In this document: positions 6,885 to 53,913 of the stretch, in pieces | Layout of the letters: every line of letters starts with the position of its first letter | How positions within the stretch are numbered: the stretch's first letter is position 1 | Notes under the pieces: generated by a model | Seen by the model: only the letters and a program-made list of their open reading frames with translations | What the model was told of the DNA's origin: nothing | Databases searched by the model: none | NCBI GenBank assembly: GCA_921293015.1 | Contig: OV121086.1 | Coordinates: forward strand, 28,940,254-29,004,253 | Direction: 5' to 3' | Source of the DNA: Phorcus lineatus | Taxonomy: Eukaryota; Mollusca; Gastropoda; Trochida; Trochidae | DNA: 64,000 nucleotides | Translations under genes and position numbers: made by a program

Positions 6885-7185
6885 AACATACGGGCGGGCG
6901 GGATAGCGCGACAGCGCAGTTCGAGTACCCCCAGGGGCTCGGCAACTTTGTCTGCAGTAGAGAACTGTTCTACACGCAGTAAGGTTTGGGTGCAATGCTA
7001 CAACGAATTTCAGCGCAGTACCACCCATGGTTCGCTAGTTCCAGCTGTTGCTCGCAGGTTTCACCACAATGCATAGCCACGATAATTTTTGCGGGCTTTC
7101 TCCCTGCCATAACACTAGCAGCCGCGATATAAGTGAAATAATCTTAAACCTCACCTCTCCTCATCTCACCTGCTTTTTGCTCACC
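6885..7185 (+). mobile_element. Old, degraded copy of the tRNA-derived SINE
   Basis: The body matches the three better copies of the same SINE in this window (45319-50561 split, 51939-52254, 53095-53421). It has GGCTCGGCAACTTTGTCTGC, then GTTTGGGTGCAATGCTAC, then GCAATGCATAGCCAC-like and TCTCCCTGC blocks, then a CACCTCACC-type tail. The tRNA-like head is badly worn: the A and B boxes are disrupted (GATAGCGCGACAGCGCAGTTCGAG). No clear target duplication. Confidence 0.7.
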
Positions 7186-42700: not shown

Positions 42701-45700
42701 TACGATTCGAATCCTTGACGAAGCCTAGGTCCAAAAATATTGAGTAAAAAGTTGGCTAGAGCTTTTTAACCCATAATGCAATTTCACAGAATAAATAAAG
42801 CAGGATTTTCATTTACCAGATCGGTAATGAAAACATCAATGCTGTTCTCCTTGAAGGGGAGATAATTCGCATCCCAGTAGGCAGTGTCGACCACAATAGA
42901 AGATCTGGAGAAATTAAACTTCATTCATTACGAAAGGTTAACATTTCGAGAGATTCATGAAATTTTTTTGCAAAAACTTTATCAATAAAATGTCACGATT
43001 TCAGACAATGCCACAAAATTAGACAGCAACTTATTTTCCAAATCGTATGCAAATAACACAGAAATAGTTGATAAAATGCTTCTCAAAACAAACACTATTA
43101 TTATCTTTATGAATGAGTTTCAACAAACTGATACCAAAGAAATACATATTTTCTTCCTTACATGTATGTGAACAATGTTACTGTTCAAATAATGGAAAAT
43201 ACTGAAACCATAAATAAGATTACTTCTATCTAACAAGAATTAATCATCAAATGAATTATATCTTACTTCTTCTCTGCTTCAAATGACTTGTTCAATGCTG
43301 CAACATTCTCCGCTGTTCTGTCGACCCCCTTCAAGAAGATGTCTCCTCCTATATGGAATGCTTGGGGCCAGCACCTTGCTCCCTGTGCCAATACAGTAGA
43401 GTTACAACGACTTGTTCCGTAATAGAAGTGAAAATTTAACAGAGCCTAATGGGATGAATTTGCATGATGGTCAACCTAAGATTACAGAAATTAAAGTTTG
43501 TATGAAAAATAACTCCTCTCAGTGCATTTTCTAAATGTTAAGTTAGTTTTAAGGAATACCATTATATGATATAGGCGAAAATTCACCTTTGAGTAATTAT
43601 CCTTAGCACATATACTGCCTCATCGGTGAATTAACAGATACAAAATCATGACACACAAATATAATGGCATTTAAATGTCGTTGAAGTGGTTGGTTTGTAG
43701 TGATGAAGATCAAACTTATTTCTTAACTGTGTAGTGTAGGCTATCACCAGAGGATGACTATATTATGCAGACTTGTTCTTAGTAGATAAACATTCCGACT
43801 TGTTTTCATCAAGTGCTCCTACCTGTATAGGAATACTGCCACATCCACACATAGGGTCACAGACAATGTCTCCCGGCTGAATCTTACACAATCTGCATGA
43901 ACAAAGAACATCAAACTAGGATAACAAATTCTCTTAAATAGGAGGGACACATAAGAAAAAGTAAACATTGGATGCTTTTTACTTGATATATCAGTCTTTT
44001 CAAGTATATCTTAACAATCCTTTTGTTTAATGAAATTATGGTTAATTATCCACAATTGTTAGTCAATTAGTCAAAACAGGTTTTTTTACTCACATTTGTC
44101 TACCCTATAATACATTTAACATGAAACAAGTAAATGAGCACTACCTGAGCATGTTGTGAGCAATGGTGGGTCTGAGAGTGGTAGCTCCAAACACAGAGAT
44201 GTTCCTGTGGTGGAGACTCTCCCTCGTCAAGCCAATACATACAGCCACATCCGTCCACTCTATGTTCAGAATCACCTCAATGTCAAACTTCTTCATGTCC
44301 ACGTTCCAACCAAAGTACTGCTGCACCGCACCTCCAAAGTTTGCGGCAGCACCTTGAGAATCAAAATGGTGGCCCTCTCCTGCACGGTTACAAGTCACCC
44401 TGAACGCAGGCACCACAGGATTGTGTGGGACCAGTTTTTCTTTTTTTTCAGGAATTGCGGTGTTTATTTCAGGCTTCTGGGGACTTGTTGACTCTGTTGA
44501 TGGTATTTGAGAAGACTCTGAGGTTGTTCCTTGACACGTTGCTGACTCTGGTGTTTGAGATGCTTCTTTGGATGGGACTTGAGGACTAGTTGGAAGGTCA
44601 ACTGACGAACCTGTTTCTTTATGATTGGCATCTGCATCACCTGATCTCTGCATCTCTTCTGCCTTTTGTATCACTGAATCCAAAGTTTCAGCATCATTTG
44701 CGTTCTGGGTTTGTTTGGGTGTATCTTCAAGGGAGAGTTCCCTGGTTGCAGAAGTCAGATCAGAGGTATCATTTGCTGCCACCTCTTCGGTTGGTTCAAT
44801 CTTGGATTCCTTCCCCTTGCTCTGTTTAGCATCAGTATCAGATTCTGCGTCATCAAATTGACCTTCCTCATAGTGTCTATAACCTTGACCCGGATTCATG
44901 AAAGGGGGACAAACTTGAACATACTTCCCTTTATCACTGACATACTGAAGGTCAGACTGACTGTCAGCATCACCAGAGTCTTTCTTGATCTCTTTTTGGG
45001 TTTCGTCTTTCTTGAAGTCTTCTTTCCTTTTGTCTTTCTTATCCTTTCCTTTCTTACCAAACTTGTCCTTTTTACCAGATTTCCCTCTCTTGTCCTTTGA
45101 TTGTTTTTTCGGCAAAGTGTCTTTGTTAAAGAGGAAGGGTTCGCCAAGATCGTAATCCTCACTGACTGGAGATGATGAGATTGGATGTTTGAAGGTGTAG
45201 AGCTGCTTCCACACCTCGAGTCCCACCTCCCAATCCACATCCTTCACCAGCTGCCTCAATTTACCCATGCACTCCAGCTGTGGACAGAAAACAAGACTTG
45301 AATATTGTTGTCTTCAAGTTAGGTGAGGTGAGGTGGTGTTTAACGCTGCTTTCAAGAGTATTTCACTTATATGGCGGCTGCTTGTATTATTGCAGGGAGA
45401 AAGCCCGCAACACCATTGTGGCTATGCATTGCGGTGAAAAGTGCGAGCATCGGCTGGAACTAGCGAAACAATGGGTGGTACTACACTTTGTGTAGCATTG
45501 CACCCAAACCTGTTTACAGAAGGAGCACAATGGAGAATCAATGTATCCAATCTTATACAATAAAGTGTTTGTTGACAAAATATTTTGAGTTATCCTATAT
45601 TGAAACCATTTCAAGTTCACACTTTGTGTGCACCGATTAGGCATCATATTAATGTTTTCCCATTCATTCTGTTGAAATTTTTTTACAAATAATTCTTCCC

Positions 45701-48700
45701 ATTTCAGCTGGCCAGTAGTTTTATCAAAACTAAATTGACATAATTTCTGATACAAATGTTTACTATTGGCAAGTTTGGAAACATTAAATGGAAGGATTGG
45801 ATAGCATTGTATATTTATATCTTGACTAAAATTAAAATTTCTCTTTTTTAAGTATTGGAGTACAGCTCTCCTTATACCCTGGTATGTAAGAAAATCAACA
45901 GAAGTATTATATTTGTTACCTAATTCTTCAAAGGACATAACATTACCAGTTTCATTCATAATATTTCTTAAGTATATTATACTCTCCTTTTCCATATTTT
46001 TATTGACGATTGTTTTCCCCCCAATTAGAATATTACTGTTGTGCCAAAGAGACTGCTTTAAAACAAGAGGGCAGTCTCCATCCTCTTGGTAACATACCAG
46101 TAAGTAATCAGCCCATGCCTTTATAACATCCTGCCAAAATCTATTTGAAATTGTAGGTAGCATACAGTTGCTAATATAAATACTATCCGCAAACCATAGT
46201 CTCTGGATATTTGTAATATATACTGAAGTATTTTTACTCCATGTAGAATTGTTATAAAGCAGTCTTTTGATCCATATTATTTTCTGCGATTTTATTATAT
46301 TTTCTGTTATTGGAACATTGATTCCTCCATTTTTGGCAATAGATGTAATAACACTCCTTTTAATCTTATCTTTTTTACCCTTCCATACAAACTCAAAACA
46401 TCTTTTCTGAAAAGATTGAATAATATTATCTGGTGGATTTGGTAATGATGAAAAGAGATGATTTAACTTTGCAAGCAATAGTGATTTTAATACAACATTT
46501 CTGCCCATGGGTGTCAGCGATCTTAATTCCCAGCTTTTCATCTCTCTCTCAATTTTTTCCAGCTTGTCTGAATAATTAATATCAACCATTAAATCTAGAT
46601 CTACATCAAATCTGATACCTAACAAATTAAATTGTGACTGTGTCCAATCTAGATGGAAATCCTTACACATCTTGTGTTTGGATCTCTTCTTTGATCCTAT
46701 CCATATCAATCTTGTTTTTTCAGTATTTACTTTAAGTCCTGAAAATCTTGCAAAAAATGTTAACACGTGAAGTACTGCATAGAGGCATTTTTCTGTACCA
46801 TCTAACGTTAAAGAGGTATCATCTGCAAACTGTGCCAAAATACTTTCAATGTTACCAATTTTAATACCTTTTATTTTCTTGTCTTTTCTTATCATAAGTG
46901 CCAGGATTTCTACACATAAAATAAATATATACGGTGAGACCGGATCTCCTTGTCTACAACCTCTTGTTATTTTGAAAAAAGAACTTCCAAATCCATTTAC
47001 AAGAACACATGATTCAATGTCATTTAAAAGAACAGAAATCCACTCACATAGACTTGGTCCAAAGTTAAAGAAACTAAGTACATTCTTGATAAAGTTTCTA
47101 TCCACAGAATCAAAAGCCTTCTCAAAATCAATTAATAATAATAGTCCTGGTGTTTGGAATGTCTCACTATAATCCATAATATCATAAATCAGTCTAGTTA
47201 CTTCACCTATATATCTACCTGGTACGAAGCCCTTTTGATCTTCATTAATAATTGATGGTAATATGGGTTTAATCCTTTTTGCTATCACAGCAGATGCAAT
47301 TTTGTATGAAGTATTTAACAAACTTATAGGGCGCCATGATTTAAGATATTGTTTAGGTTTATTTGGTTTTGGCAAACATGTAATTAATCCTTGTTTCTGG
47401 GTTACAGATAGGGAACCATGTTCATAAGCATAGTTTAAAGAATTAATCAAGAATTTATTTAAATCATACCAAAAGAATTTATAAAATTCAGTTGTAAATC
47501 CATCAGGTCCTGGCGTTTTTTCATTCTTCATTTTTTTCAGTACATTTAAACATTCTTCATAAGTTATTTTGCCCTCTAGATTTGATGATTCCAAATCAGA
47601 CAATCTTGGGACACTTGTATCTGAGAACAAAGATTCAAGGTCTATCTCTGAACACTCTTCCTTAGAGTATAATTTTTCATAAAATTTTTTAGTTTCATCG
47701 AGTATGTCTTCTTGTTTATTTATTTCAGAACCATCATTTCTAACAAGTTTTGTAATTGATTTATTTAAAAAGTTTCTAGTCTTTAAGTGCAAGAAATATT
47801 TGCTAGGTTTTTCACCATATTCAATCCATGTAGCTTTTGATCTAATAAAAAGTCCTTTAGTTTTTTCCTTATTAATTTCTTCTAGTTCTCCCCTAGTGTC
47901 ATTAATATTTTTTAGAATATTTTCTTTCTCACCCAAATTTTCTTCATTATCTAAATTAATTTCAAGCTCTTGCATTTTTTTCCCCAAATCTGACTCTCTA
48001 TTATTTCTCTTTTTTTTCTTTGTAGAAGAATAATATATAGTCATGCCCCTAATTTCAAGTAATAGCATTTCCCATAATAACTGATCATTTAGTTCATATT
48101 CTACTTTTGTTTCCTGCTGATCAGGAATCTGATATTTCAGTAGAGTTGTTTTAATTGTATCCTTTACCTTTTTAATATAGTCTGAATCGCGTAATAATGA
48201 ATTGTTGAATTTCCAGAATCCCTTACCCCTTTCCATTTGTGATGAGTTAATTGTAATTGTCACAATAGAATGGTCTGAGTTAATACTTGGGATTATATCT
48301 GTATCTGAGACAGAGTACATCATGTTATGTGTTACCAAAACAAAATCTAAACGAGATTGCTTTAAGGGAGTTGGTTGTCTCCAAGTAAAACGCCTTTCAT
48401 TAGGGTGTAAATCACGCCATGGGTCCTTTAAATCCAGCAAATCCATTATCTCAATTACCTCCTCTCTAGCTTTTGGATTATTCACATGTTTATAATTGTA
48501 TGTATCCATATCTGTATCTAAAACTAAATTCCAATCACCGCAAATTATTGCCTTATCACTTTCAAAATTTTCTACGACTGTTTTAATATTTTTATAAAAT
48601 TCAGGTTCATCCGTATTTGGCCCATACAGGTTGACCAATGAATAAATAATTTCATTAATTTTTAGTTTTAAAGCTACATAATTCCCTTCATTTTCATCAA

Positions 48701-51700
48701 TTACTGTCTGTAAAATATCAAATTGAAAATCATTATTGAAAAGAATGGCGGTGCCCCTTGCATTGCTTCTATAATGACTAAAGTAACATTCATTATATCC
48801 CCATTGTTGTCTAATTAATTGTTCCTGCTCTTTTGTAAAGTGTACATCTTGGAGACAGAAAATTTGTGCTTTCTTTTTTCTCAAAAACCTGAAAATTTGT
48901 TTTCTTTTGAAGTTATTATTAAGGCCTCTACAGTTTAAGGATAAAATCTTAAATTTGTCTTTATTTTCCATCATTACAGCATCCTGACATTATAATCTGT
49001 TCAATTACAGCTACATATTTTGTATACCTGCAATTAGCAATAAATATCTGGTATATATCCAAAACATCTATGGTTTTCCTTTGTATATCACTTCCTATTC
49101 TGTAGATATAAAGCACAGTATTTACAAAAATTCCTTTGCATTCTTGGAATTGGGAAATGAATGTTAAACACAATAAAATTAAAAAAAGAATGATAAAAAA
49201 TCTTAACCTGTCAATTGTGCTTTCAGCAATGTTTTGCTCCCCAATTTTATCAATACAATATTTTACTCTGAAATTTGGCCGTAAAAAATTGGCACTTAAA
49301 ACAACAGAAATTACCAACTGTTCCCTACTCCGGTGGGAATCATCATAGTTTTACTAAAACTAATAACTATATCTGTTAAAAAATTTAGCATTTATGTATT
49401 ATGTTGGCTGTCCAAATATATAAAATAAGAAGTGTTATCACACAGGTCAGCGTTAACTTAACGTAGATACCTCTATATTGATATTCATATCTCAATAGAT
49501 CACACCAAACAATGTAATATAGACATATAAACGAAACTAAGTTTCAATAAATCCAATAAACACAGATATGACAAATTTAAATTACTGTCATCAATGCTTT
49601 GCGTTATCAGTTCTGTAAACAGGTGCCGGAAAGCATTATTCATTTATTATGTGACTGTAATCATGTTAAAAAAGTGTGGAAAGAATTGACGGAATGGCTA
49701 GATGACTTGGCTGAAGGATGTATTGAATTAACACCAGAAAATATTATTTTTGGTTTTAAGGGTAAAAACAACAACCCATTAAATGCCATTTGTTTGCTGG
49801 TAAAACAAAATATTTACAGTTCTAGCAGAACAGGACAGAAACTAAATTTTTGCTCTATCCAAAAAGAATTATTAAGATACTATGAGGCATGTAAATATAT
49901 TGCTTTCACAAATAACAGTAAGCCGAAATTTTATTCATTTTGGTCCTCTTTTCACACTTTATTCCAGCGCATCAAAACTGGTACTTAATCTTTATGAAGA
50001 TGATGTTAATTCTTGCTTAAAATAGCAAATGATGTAAATCTTGAAATGTACACTGTTGAATTACAATTTTCACACTTTATTCCAGCGCAGCAAAACTGGT
50101 ACTTAATCTTTATGAAGATGATGTTAATTCTTGCTTAAAATAGCAAATGATGTAAATCTTGAAATGTACACTGTTGAATTACAATATCTAGCAGTGATGG
50201 TACTGAATCTGTATATTCTATAAGATCCTAAGAACTGAAGATGATATAAACTTTAAAGTGAATATTGATTATTACCTGCAATAAGAATAGTGAAATGTGA
50301 ATATTATTCTTCCTTTGTTTTGTATACAAATACATAATGTCAATTGTCATTGTTAATATACAATACACAAATGTAAAATGTAAATCATCTTATGGGAAAT
50401 AAAAACATAAAAAAAAAAATTTAAAAAAATTGCACCCAAACCTGACTGTGTGTAGAAAAGTTCTCTACTGTAGACAAAGTTGCTGAGGCCCTGGCGGGAC
50501 TCGAACCACGGACCTCCTAATACGAAGCCGAACGCGCTTACCACTGCGCTATCCCGCCCCCTGTTGTCTTCAAGCTGACCAGCAATAAACTAAGTCATTT
50601 CAAGGTTACTCATCTAATATCAGCTTAGCAAATAAAAATGTAATACCATACTGAGTGAATTATTCAGGACACCTAACTTAAAAGCACTGTAGCATGTTTC
50701 TTTTTAAAAATTTTATTTTTCAAATTTCTCTTGAAAAATAGTTTCTTCAAATTGTAAACATTTTATTACTCAAGCTGATTCAGTAGTTGCAGAATAAGGT
50801 GTCACATTTCAAACAAAAACTACACGTGGAAGTTTTCTTTGGACCGGTTACACCTATTAATCTTTTAAATAACTGAAATAGATTTGTGTAGTGGGTATGT
50901 TTGTTCAAAAAAAATATAATTGCATTTATTACTCGCCCGTGTAAGATACTGCAGTGTAATATTTATATGGCGATATTAAACTAGTGTAATACCACTGCAC
51001 GTATGACGTCATAATATTGTGTGGTTGTGACGTCACAATGTTGGCACCGACGTTACAATGGCGGCCAAGTCGCCAAAATGTTACGTTTAAGTACACTTTC
51101 GGCAATCATGCTTGATTACTGAGGACAAGTATATATATATATTTCCTGATATCCCATTATTTCTAAAAAAAATGTGTAACAGTGCAAACAAAGTCAGAGA
51201 GGCAATTTACGTTAAGAAGTTTTAAAAACAGGGTTAACCCCCCCTAACACCCTCTTATATTGCCAATTTATTCTTGTTACACTTTGTATAAACACAGAAT
51301 TTAAGTGGGTGAGTTATTGTTTAGCGCTGCTTGGGCAATGTTTCAGCAATTAATGGCGTCACAGAATTAAGAGTTTATGCACACATATGCAACAACCAGG
51401 AAGCAAGCTTTCCACATAGACATATGGAGGCTTGATTTAAGAAGAAATTCATCATGGCTAACCTAAAATCATCATATGATCAATATAAGAAGACATGCAA
51501 ATCAATAATTTCAATTAAAAATAAAGAACTACTACAAATAATTTCTCAGCTTTGAGAAAATCAATAAACAATCAACAAACCTCATCTTTGGAGAACTGAA
51601 CATTTTTCCATGAGGTCATCACCACTCTCACATTATCCACACATCCCAAGTCAAGAACCTTCAACAATAAATTGCTTCTTTTATGCAAGGCTAAATCAAT

Positions 51701-53913
51701 ACATACAAATAGATATTCAACATTTGAGCAAGTGTTTCATATAAGAGCGTATTTTTTTATTCTCTGATTTTGTCAAATTTAAGCCAGGTAGGGGTGATAC
51801 ACATGTATAACACATTAAAAATAAACCAAAAAAACATGACTGTGGGTATCAAAAGCTATCGGATAAAGAGTTTTTTGTTGTTTATGAATAGAATCAACTC
51901 TCGTACGGAAGGGGATATTGATATCTATACTTGATATATATAGGGGCGGGGTAGCGCAGTGGTTAGCACGTTTGGCTTCGGATCAAGAGATCCGTGGTTC
52001 GAATCCCGCCAGGGGCTCGGCAACTTTGTCTGCAGTAGAGAACTGTTCTACACACAGTCAGGTTTGGGTGCAGTGCTACACTGAGTTTCAGCGCAGTACC
52101 ACCCATGGTTTGCTAGTTCCAGCCGATGCTCGCAGGTTTCACCGCAATGCATAGCCACAATGGTGTTGCGGGCTTTTTCCCTGCACTAATACTAGCAGCC
52201 GCGATATAAGTGAAATAATCTTGAAAACAGCGTTAAACCCCAAATCACTCACTCTCTATACTTAATATAACATCAGATATTGATTCTTTCAATTTCCTGT
52301 GACAATTTAACATCCAATCTTAATTTGTTCATGATGTCATAGAGGACAAAGAACAAAAACATATGACACGAAGCAAAACACAAAGACATTGGTTTCAATG
52401 CTTTCTTGGTAAAAGTGATATTCATATGTATGATAGGGTTTTTGAAGAAATATTAATGTCCATCAATGAGGATGAAATGTGTTATTTATTATTAGTGAAA
52501 ATAACATAGGAACATGTTAACACTATAGTGACTTATAGCACTAATGCTCTGACATTCTGATGCAGTGACATGCTCATGACGTTATGTTGTTGCTGAGGCG
52601 ACATGCAGGCTCTTTTAGGGCAGACTCAATGACTGTGAAGGTCAGAGTAAAAATATAACATTTAGATCATATGATTGAAAATTTCCCTTTAATTGACAAT
52701 ACCATGTTAATATCATCTCCTGAGGTAGTTCAGATAATCTAATCTTCCAGGCCTATTTTATCTGTAACAGCTTCCCGATAATATTGATCAATAAAAAGGA
52801 AACATTTTACTTCAATCGTCACATGGATAGAAAGATAACCCTTTGACTTCTGTATCCAACCAGTTTTTCATCTTAGAAAATTTTCTTTTTTATCTAGTGG
52901 CATGAAATATATTGCTACCCACTACATAATGATGGTGTCTGTCAATAAGTCAAGCAAGAGTGTAGTTGCGGTGAATTCAATATTGCTGAACAAAAAAGTA
53001 AATTTTCAATAATGTTACAACAGTTTGATATATTAAAGCCAAAGGAAGCATGCTGGACTATTCCTGAGGCAAAAGTATACCAGTCATAGTATGAGGTGAG
53101 GTGAGGTGAGGTGAGGTGGTGTTTAACGCTGCTTTCAAGATTATTTCAATTATATCGCGGCTGCTGGTATTAGTGCAGGGAGAAAGCCCGCAACACCATT
53201 GTGGCTATGCATTGCAGTGAAACCTGCGAGCATTGGCTGGAACTAGCAAACCATGGGTGGTACTGCGCTGAATTTTAGTGTAGTAGGCCTATTGCACCCA
53301 AACCTGACTGCCTGTAGAACAGTTCTCTACTACAGACAAAGTTGCCGAGCCCCTGACGGGATTCGAACCACGGACCTCCTGATCCGAAGCCGAACGTGCT
53401 AACCACTGCGCTATCCCACCCCCAGTCATAGTATGACACTCTTGGTATTTGTCTTGAAAAGACAAACATATCATCCTTATTTTGAACATTTCATACATAA
53501 AGTATTCCACTGCTGGTTACGTTCACCATATGGGTAAAATACTTCATTTACATTACCTAATTACAGCGTTAATTAATCAATTTGTAACCCTACTTGATAC
53601 AAAGAAAATGTTATCCGAAGATAATAGGTCGCTTAGTGACAACTAAATCTTTATACAGTGTGAGTGCAAGTCTGTAACACAACTGACAGTTGCAGAAATT
53701 AAACACAGACATGTGTCGACATACGCTGGCAACATCTTTAACTGGAATTTTAGCAATAACTTTCCCCCGGGCTGCTTTTGCTGCAATTCCAAATTTTTCT
53801 TCTACTTCTTCTTTAGCAGTTTGTTCAAAGCCAGTTGCCACTGTTGCTTCTATTTCACACAGTTCAATGTTTTTATCCTCACTCGGAGTCACGTTGTCTG
53901 TGGGGGCCGCCAT
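39724..53913 (-). CDS. THUMPD3: THUMPD3, tRNA (guanosine-N2)-methyltransferase, complete gene in nine coding exons
   Basis: Inferred exons are 53913-53725, 51658-51581, 45277-44145, 43892-43823, 43382-43267, 42904-42817, 42544-42531, 41246-41123 and 40161-39724. They sum to 2,250 nt with matching phases, giving 749 residues. Exon 1 carries the N-terminal ATVATGFEQTAKEEVEEKFG segment. Exon 3 carries a long Lys-rich then Ser/Glu-rich linker and the THUMP domain (FRVTCNRAGEGHHF, LTRESLHHRNI, TTLRPTIAHNMLR). Exon 4 has the SAM-binding motif VCDPMCGCGSIPI. Exons 6-7 form the catalytic motif ITDLPFGKR. Exon 8 has EMARVCRPGTGRVCVLTQD. Known role: with TRMT112 it makes N2-methylguanosine at positions 6 and 7 of tRNAs. 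At 749 residues it exceeds the human protein (about 507), because of the linker and an acidic Ser-rich C-terminal tail of about 95 residues. Introns 1 and 2 carry transposons. Confidence 0.93.
45513..48974 (-). CDS. LINE ORF2 (endonuclease-reverse transcriptase), C terminus cut off by inversion
   Basis: The open frame runs 1,195 codons from 48974; about 1,155 are LINE-derived and the last 40 or so read into the SINE, ending at 45387. Residues about 8-240 form an apurinic-type endonuclease (LSLNCRGLNN, CLQDVHF, ICGDWNLVLD, RLDFVL, SDHSIV). The catalytic Glu expected after LQ is Asp. Residues about 470-760 form the reverse transcriptase (KTPGPDGFTTEFYKF, WRPISLLNTSYKI, LLIDFEKAFDSV, GCRQGDPVSPYIFI, QFADDTSL with both aspartates). 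The GKGFWKFNNSLL phrase after the endonuclease is typical of Tx1/L1-clade elements. No stop or frameshift is present, so the insertion is young. The missing C-terminal about 127 residues are encoded on the other strand at 49611-49988. Confidence 0.9.
49605..49988 (+). CDS. LINE ORF2 C-terminal fragment (cysteine-histidine domain), forward part of twin-primed LINE
   Basis: Starts at the junction with FCKQVPESIIHLLCDCNHVK, which continues exactly where the inverted ORF2 part stops (SFCKQ). The C-x2-C...H-x3-C pattern across the two parts is the zinc-knuckle-like motif found near the C terminus of L1/Tx1 ORF2 proteins. The frame ends at 49988 and is followed by a 3' UTR and A-rich tail. It cannot be expressed as part of ORF2 in its present orientation. 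Confidence 0.85.
   Translation, partial: YQFCKQVPESIIHLLCDCNHVKKVWKELTEWLDDLAEGCIELTPENIIFGFKGKNNNPLNAICLLVKQNIYSSSRTGQKLNFCSIQKELLRYYEACKYIAFTNNSKPKFYSFWSSFHTLFQRIKTGT
49951..50187 (+). repeat. 118-bp tandem duplication spanning the LINE stop codon and 3' UTR
   Basis: The segment from TTCACACTTTATTCCAGCGC to CACTGTTGAATTACAAT occurs twice, 118 bp apart (starting near 49951 and 50069), with one visible difference (GCATCAAA or GCAGCAAA). The first copy includes the end of the coding region. Confidence 0.9.
50575..51580 (-). other. THUMPD3 intron 2, remainder
   Basis: AT-rich intronic DNA. Near 51305-51420 there is a TTTAGCGCTGCTT phrase resembling the TTTAACGCTGCTTTC tail of the SINE family, but the rest does not match. 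No exon found. Confidence 0.35.
51924..52269 (+). mobile_element. tRNA-derived SINE, intact copy
   Basis: The head has RNA polymerase III promoter boxes: A box TAGCGCAGTGGTTAGCACG and B box GGTTCGAATCCC, in a tRNA-like arrangement. The conserved body follows (CAACTTTGTCTGCAGTAGAG, GTTTGGGTGCAGTGCTACAC, CACCCATGGTTTGCTAGTTC, GCAATGCATAGCCACAATGG), then TTAAACCCC and a CACT-type tail. It is flanked by a 15-bp target duplication, TCTATACTTGATATA or TCTATACTTAATATA (51924-51938 and 52255-52269, one mismatch). It lies in THUMPD3 intron 1, antisense to the gene. Confidence 0.9.
53080..53436 (-). mobile_element. tRNA-derived SINE, intact copy
   Basis: Minus-strand copy with a clean tRNA-like head (GGTTCGAATCCCGTC) and a GGTGA-type repeat tail at the left. 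It is flanked by a perfect 15-bp duplication, CCAGTCATAGTATGA (53080-53094 and 53422-53436). It lies in THUMPD3 intron 1. Confidence 0.92.

Follow-up and report, generated by a model that had tools for sequence, protein, structure and literature searches.

A single twin-primed retrotransposition of an apparently L1-type LINE into an older SINE very probably (about 0.93) created the arrangement at 45497-50444 of the window, by which we mean the whole 64,000-nucleotide stretch of Phorcus lineatus DNA analysed here. We favour one such event because a target duplication, an inverted 5' part, a normally oriented 3' part with a tail, two microhomologies and collinear relatives occur together. The 5' part of the LINE (45513-49610) lies in the opposite orientation to the 3' part (49611-50428), and ATTGCACCCAAACCTG, present at 45497-45512 and again at 50429-50444 with 16/16 nt identical, encloses the whole element. 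The first A of ATTGCACCCAAACCTG could belong to the A-rich tail, so that the duplication measures 15-16 nt. The features of the insertion, from left to right, are as follows.

45306-45318, no strand: left target duplication of the SINE (TGTTGTCTTCAAG), 13 nt, two identical copies.
45319-45512, minus strand: 3' part of the interrupted SINE, by its match to three other SINE copies within the window.
45387-48974, minus strand: ORF2 frame from its first ATG, 1,195 codons, interrupted after SFCKQ, with 40 further residues read from target duplication and SINE.
45497-45512, no strand: left target duplication of the LINE, from the identical repeat pair and the junction comparison; the terminal ACCTG (5 nt) is the putative second primer.
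45513-49610, minus strand: 5' part of the LINE in inverted orientation (second cDNA), 4,098 nt, about 1.25 kb of the 5' end missing; collinear in other copies.
49611-49614, no strand: TTCT microhomology at the inversion junction, from comparison of antisense with sense element.
49611-50428, plus strand: 3' part of the LINE in normal orientation (first cDNA), 818 nt, with the ORF2 C-terminus, 3' UTR and A-rich tail.
50429-50444, no strand: right target duplication of the LINE, from the identical repeat pair.
50445-50561, minus strand: 5' part of the interrupted SINE, presumably a tRNA-like head, from comparison with other SINE copies.
50562-50574, no strand: right target duplication of the SINE, 13 nt, identical to the left one.

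The inverted part holds a spacer and ORF2 with its endonuclease and reverse transcriptase domains. Supporting twin priming, the breakpoints of the two parts lie no more than 14 nt from each other on the element. Two independent LINE insertions lying head to head would suit a family that is young and multi-copy, but a single target duplication encloses everything, neither a separate A-rich tail nor a separate duplication accompanies the inverted part, and on the element the inverted part stops where the 3' part begins, to within those 14 nt; the chance of such an origin is practically negligible. Within the 3' UTR, we also observed a 118-nt tandem duplication (49949-50066 and 50067-50184, 99% identical). 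It is present in the other young copies covering that part of the 3' UTR, although L022 and L025 have just a portion of it, and is thus a feature of the family.

We searched the window's own genome (958 Mb) with a probe of 701 nt from the 3' part and scored the best 40 of 164 candidates. The probe had at least 41 matches in the genome, and at least 24 besides the window copy matched at 94-100% across whatever portion of the probe they covered. The breakpoint is spanned by 19 of these 24; all 19 are collinear and carry TTCTGTAAACAGGT once each, and in every one the two window parts overlap by exactly this 14-mer. A probe 5' of the breakpoint returned the same 19 copies and, among the best 40 of 188 candidates, none further above 84%. 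A further probe, taken from the extreme 5' end of the window copy, matched nine others at 99-100% with all 17 candidates scored, and in each of the nine the match lies on the strand that carries the copy's own 3' part. The earlier note's description of an inverted 5' part bounded by a target duplication is borne out by these comparisons, and the head-to-head copies that it had named as counterevidence did not appear: among the 22 other copies with the 5' end seen, 0/22 are inverted, all being full length or simply truncated (L007, with 12 nt of flank, and L012, with its 5' end beyond the stretch examined, are left out of this count). The matches listed also included many older relatives of the element (77-84% identity), which point to several lineages of the family in this genome.

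Close inspection of the junctions revealed a short microhomology at each. At the target junction, the target reads T-CAGGT-TTGG and the element A-CAGGT-GCCG, with 5 nt in common and mismatches on either side; at the inversion junction, antisense element (TCAG-TTCT-TTGAG) and sense element (CTCC-TTCT-GTAAA) have 4 nt in common. Over 200,000 draws each, exact microhomology of at least 5 nt arose at 0.76% of random element/window junctions, and of at least 4 nt at 2.7% of random antisense/sense element junctions. The complementarity of about 5 nt between ACCTG and CAGGT, proposed at first reading, is genuine, being flanked by mismatches and with CAGGT carried by 2/3 other SINE copies.

The match of TTCTGTAAACAGGT at both junctions is exact, on the plus strand at 49611-49624 and on the minus strand at 45508-45521. 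This part of the original claim stands, and what needs narrowing is the length copied twice. Because TTCT and CAGGT are junction microhomologies, only 5 of the 14 doubled nt, GTAAA (49615-49619), were certainly copied into both cDNAs; TTCT may stem from the step that joined the two cDNAs, and CAGGT may represent the primer. By itself the 14-nt inverted repeat is weak evidence: with two mismatches allowed, the 14-mer had three matches in the window against a shuffle mean of 1.01, a number reached in 10/100 shuffles, and 15 inverted repeat pairs were found in the same stretch. The case rests on where the 14-mer lies, precisely at the target-duplication border and at the inversion point, together with the collinear copies. 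A collinear, 5'-truncated copy that inserted normally and had its 5' part inverted later would end with identical topology, and junction microhomology fits end joining too. Such an inversion, however, would need a break coinciding precisely with the border of the target duplication and would need to double a piece of the element, and the inverted part contains no flanking SINE sequence; this history is very improbable.

Under twin priming, the LINE endonuclease would nick the bottom strand, and a first cDNA of about 0.8 kb would be made from the RNA tail, reaching at least GTAAA (49615-49619). A second nick about 15 nt off would yield a 3' overhang ending in ACCTG, which could anneal to CAGGU of the same RNA at a site that the first cDNA includes as well. 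This second primer would then be extended about 4.1 kb toward the RNA 5' end, stopping about 1.25 kb short, and the two cDNA ends would be joined via TTCT. Twin priming as originally suggested is supported, with two additions: the 5' truncation of about 1.25 kb and the second microhomology, TTCT. Speaking against it are the shortness of the microhomologies (5 nt and 4 nt, with chances of 0.8% and 2.7%), the AAGGT of the third SINE copy, the lack of inversion in the 22 other copies with the 5' end seen and the length of the inverted part.

Dual priming, proposed in a passage of PMC2837659, would instead employ two RNAs of the same family, one per nick, with their cDNAs joined. It would explain the doubled stretch (GTAAA at least) without one stretch of RNA being copied twice. 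Two RNAs need not, however, give breakpoints at most 14 nt apart on an element of about 6 kb, and each LINE part has a minor variant in common with L006, though at only two informative sites. Alleles of another subgroup are absent from both parts, at few informative sites, in agreement with one source subgroup. We give dual priming a slim chance and regard twin priming of a single RNA as more probable.

The element that received the LINE is a SINE on the minus strand. Its two pieces (45319-45512 and 50445-50561) join to 311 nt with a 13-nt target duplication of their own, and we take the 5' piece to be a tRNA-like head from its A and B box motifs. ARAGORN at default settings found no tRNA in this head, and a permissive run produced overlapping, unconvincing models in another SINE copy. 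Three further SINE copies in the window (51943-52252, 53101-53426 and 6919-7148), 85-88% like the interrupted one, pass through the insertion site without a LINE; these are paralogous stand-ins for the empty site, not the empty allele. The site reads CAGGTTTGGGTGCA in two of them and AAGGTTTGGGTGCA in the third, with CAGGT at the corresponding place in the two and AAGGT in the third. The presence of CAGGT in 2/3 LINE-free copies suggests that the target most likely carried CAGGT before the LINE arrived.

That the LINE landed in a SINE is incidental. Repeats are the targets of some Tx1-group elements, and we considered insertion directed at SINEs for this family; it was rejected, a SINE lying at the junction in 1/23 copies with a readable 3' end, namely the window copy itself. 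In two other copies, SINE matches start 861 and 1,062 nt past the anchor. Clear target duplications, 9-16 nt long, were found in 16 family copies, and C directly precedes the duplication in 14/16, window copy (45496/45497) included. Measured against the C share among non-A window bases, this gives a P of about 1e-6, for a pattern picked after viewing the sites. With 14/16 preceded by C, the window copy sits at a site of the kind that the family's endonuclease usually cuts; having a SINE next to it (1/23) is atypical.

The insertion is recent, in agreement with the earlier note. Its parts carry two private substitutions in 1,379 nt (compared with 15 other copies) and two in 759 nt (compared with 19), or 4 in 2,138 nt, and the mean pairwise difference is 0.35% for the former part and 0.41% for the latter. 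An assembly artefact fusing two copies is conceivable where many near-identical copies could mislead an assembler. Yet both copies of the target duplication are intact, the SINE sits at a unique place, and private substitutions occur in both parts (2/1,379 and 2/759 nt), making such a fusion extremely improbable.

Beyond its inversion, the window copy is incomplete. Three long collinear copies reach 1,248-1,304 nt farther upstream than the inverted part does, and a full-length 5' end at 49610 was rejected on that ground. One of the three has a stop-free ORF1 of 308 codons (L035:3161-4084, minus), and in the remaining two the ORF1 reading is split between frames. Judged by these longer copies, the window copy lost ORF1, and its second cDNA appears to have ended short of the RNA 5' end. 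Compared with Pfam, ORF1 matched no family over the cut-off and gave only sub-cut-off matches, mostly to coiled-coil models; a search for solved relatives of ORF1 found none.

The inversion breaks ORF2 in a way that could mislead annotation. The minus-strand ORF at 45387-48989 has 1,200 codons from stop to stop and, as previously reported, 1,195 counted from its first ATG. It follows ORF2 as far as SFCKQ and then runs on for 40 residues, read from the target duplication and the SINE. The ORF2 reading picks up on the plus strand at 49611 with FCKQVPES, just as first described, and in the collinear copy L006 SFCKQVPES is uninterrupted. The window copy can encode no whole ORF2 protein, and ORF1 is absent. 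Annotators should hence be warned that this stop-free ORF of 1,195 codons is a broken ORF2 with SINE-read residues. Adjoining the insertion is another long ORF (44141-45313, minus strand). A Pfam search with it found no family; to us it resembles a THUMPD3 exon, in which case the LINE would presumably sit in the intron upstream.

A known mechanism is seen here in a clean and recent case, whose main use is as an illustration and an annotation warning. Twin priming can be followed base by base in an animal L1-type LINE that has near-identical copies for reference. Among the papers that our literature search covered, none combined twin priming and a mollusc, which is only a hint of possible newness there; papers that name both twin priming and an invertebrate exist.

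By its ORF2, the element is probably an L1-type LINE at the superfamily level (L1 and Tx1 groups). ORF2 matches the Pfam families Exo_endo_phos (6.6e-15) and RVT_1 (2.4e-34), and its best solved relative in the PDB is human L1 ORF2p (E 6e-97). A search with the C-terminal piece found no relatives in phages, and none were found in viral contigs. In gastropods, the L1 superfamily is represented by Tx1, according to a passage of PMC11203168. Like other members of the superfamily, this family has two ORFs, an ORF2 with endonuclease and reverse transcriptase, and an A-rich tail, but its ORF1 matches no LINE ORF1 family in Pfam. Human L1 uses a TTTT/A site, whereas here C/A marks the duplication edge.

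Insertions of human LINE-1 with an inverted, twin-primed 5' part were reportedly described by Ostertag and Kazazian in 2001. The window copy resembles them in its 15-16 nt duplication, in a 5' part inverted next to a 3' part of normal orientation, in breakpoints near each other on the element, in microhomology at the target junction and in overlap of the cDNAs. It differs in host animal and in being a distant L1-type LINE, in that 0/22 other copies are inverted, and in the length of its inverted part, 4.1 kb where the median in the human germline is 751 bp. Inversions make up 18.4% (165/897) in the human germline; simple arithmetic puts the probability of 0/22 at that rate at about 0.01, the sampling of the two sets being different, and hints that this family inverts less often than human L1 (1/23 with the window copy).

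According to PMC12016303, breakpoints are at most 20 bp apart in 132/287 human L1 inversions, overlap occurs in 44/106 germline inversions, the median overlap is 12 bp (quartiles 4 and 17) and the median target duplication 13 bp. For cultured cells, a passage of PMC4245944 reports that, apart from one exception, human L1 in human cells was the source of the 5' inversions, and that their target duplications were mostly of 10-20 bp. The overlap here (14 nt aligned, 5 certain) and the duplication (15-16 nt) fall inside these published human L1 ranges. The cDNA overlap has the size of the target duplication, which is also true of human germline inversions, and both lengths might be set by a single constraint of the integration complex, common to human L1 and this distant LINE, an idea that we consider unlikely. 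The event enables overlap and target-duplication lengths to be compared across distant L1-type elements.
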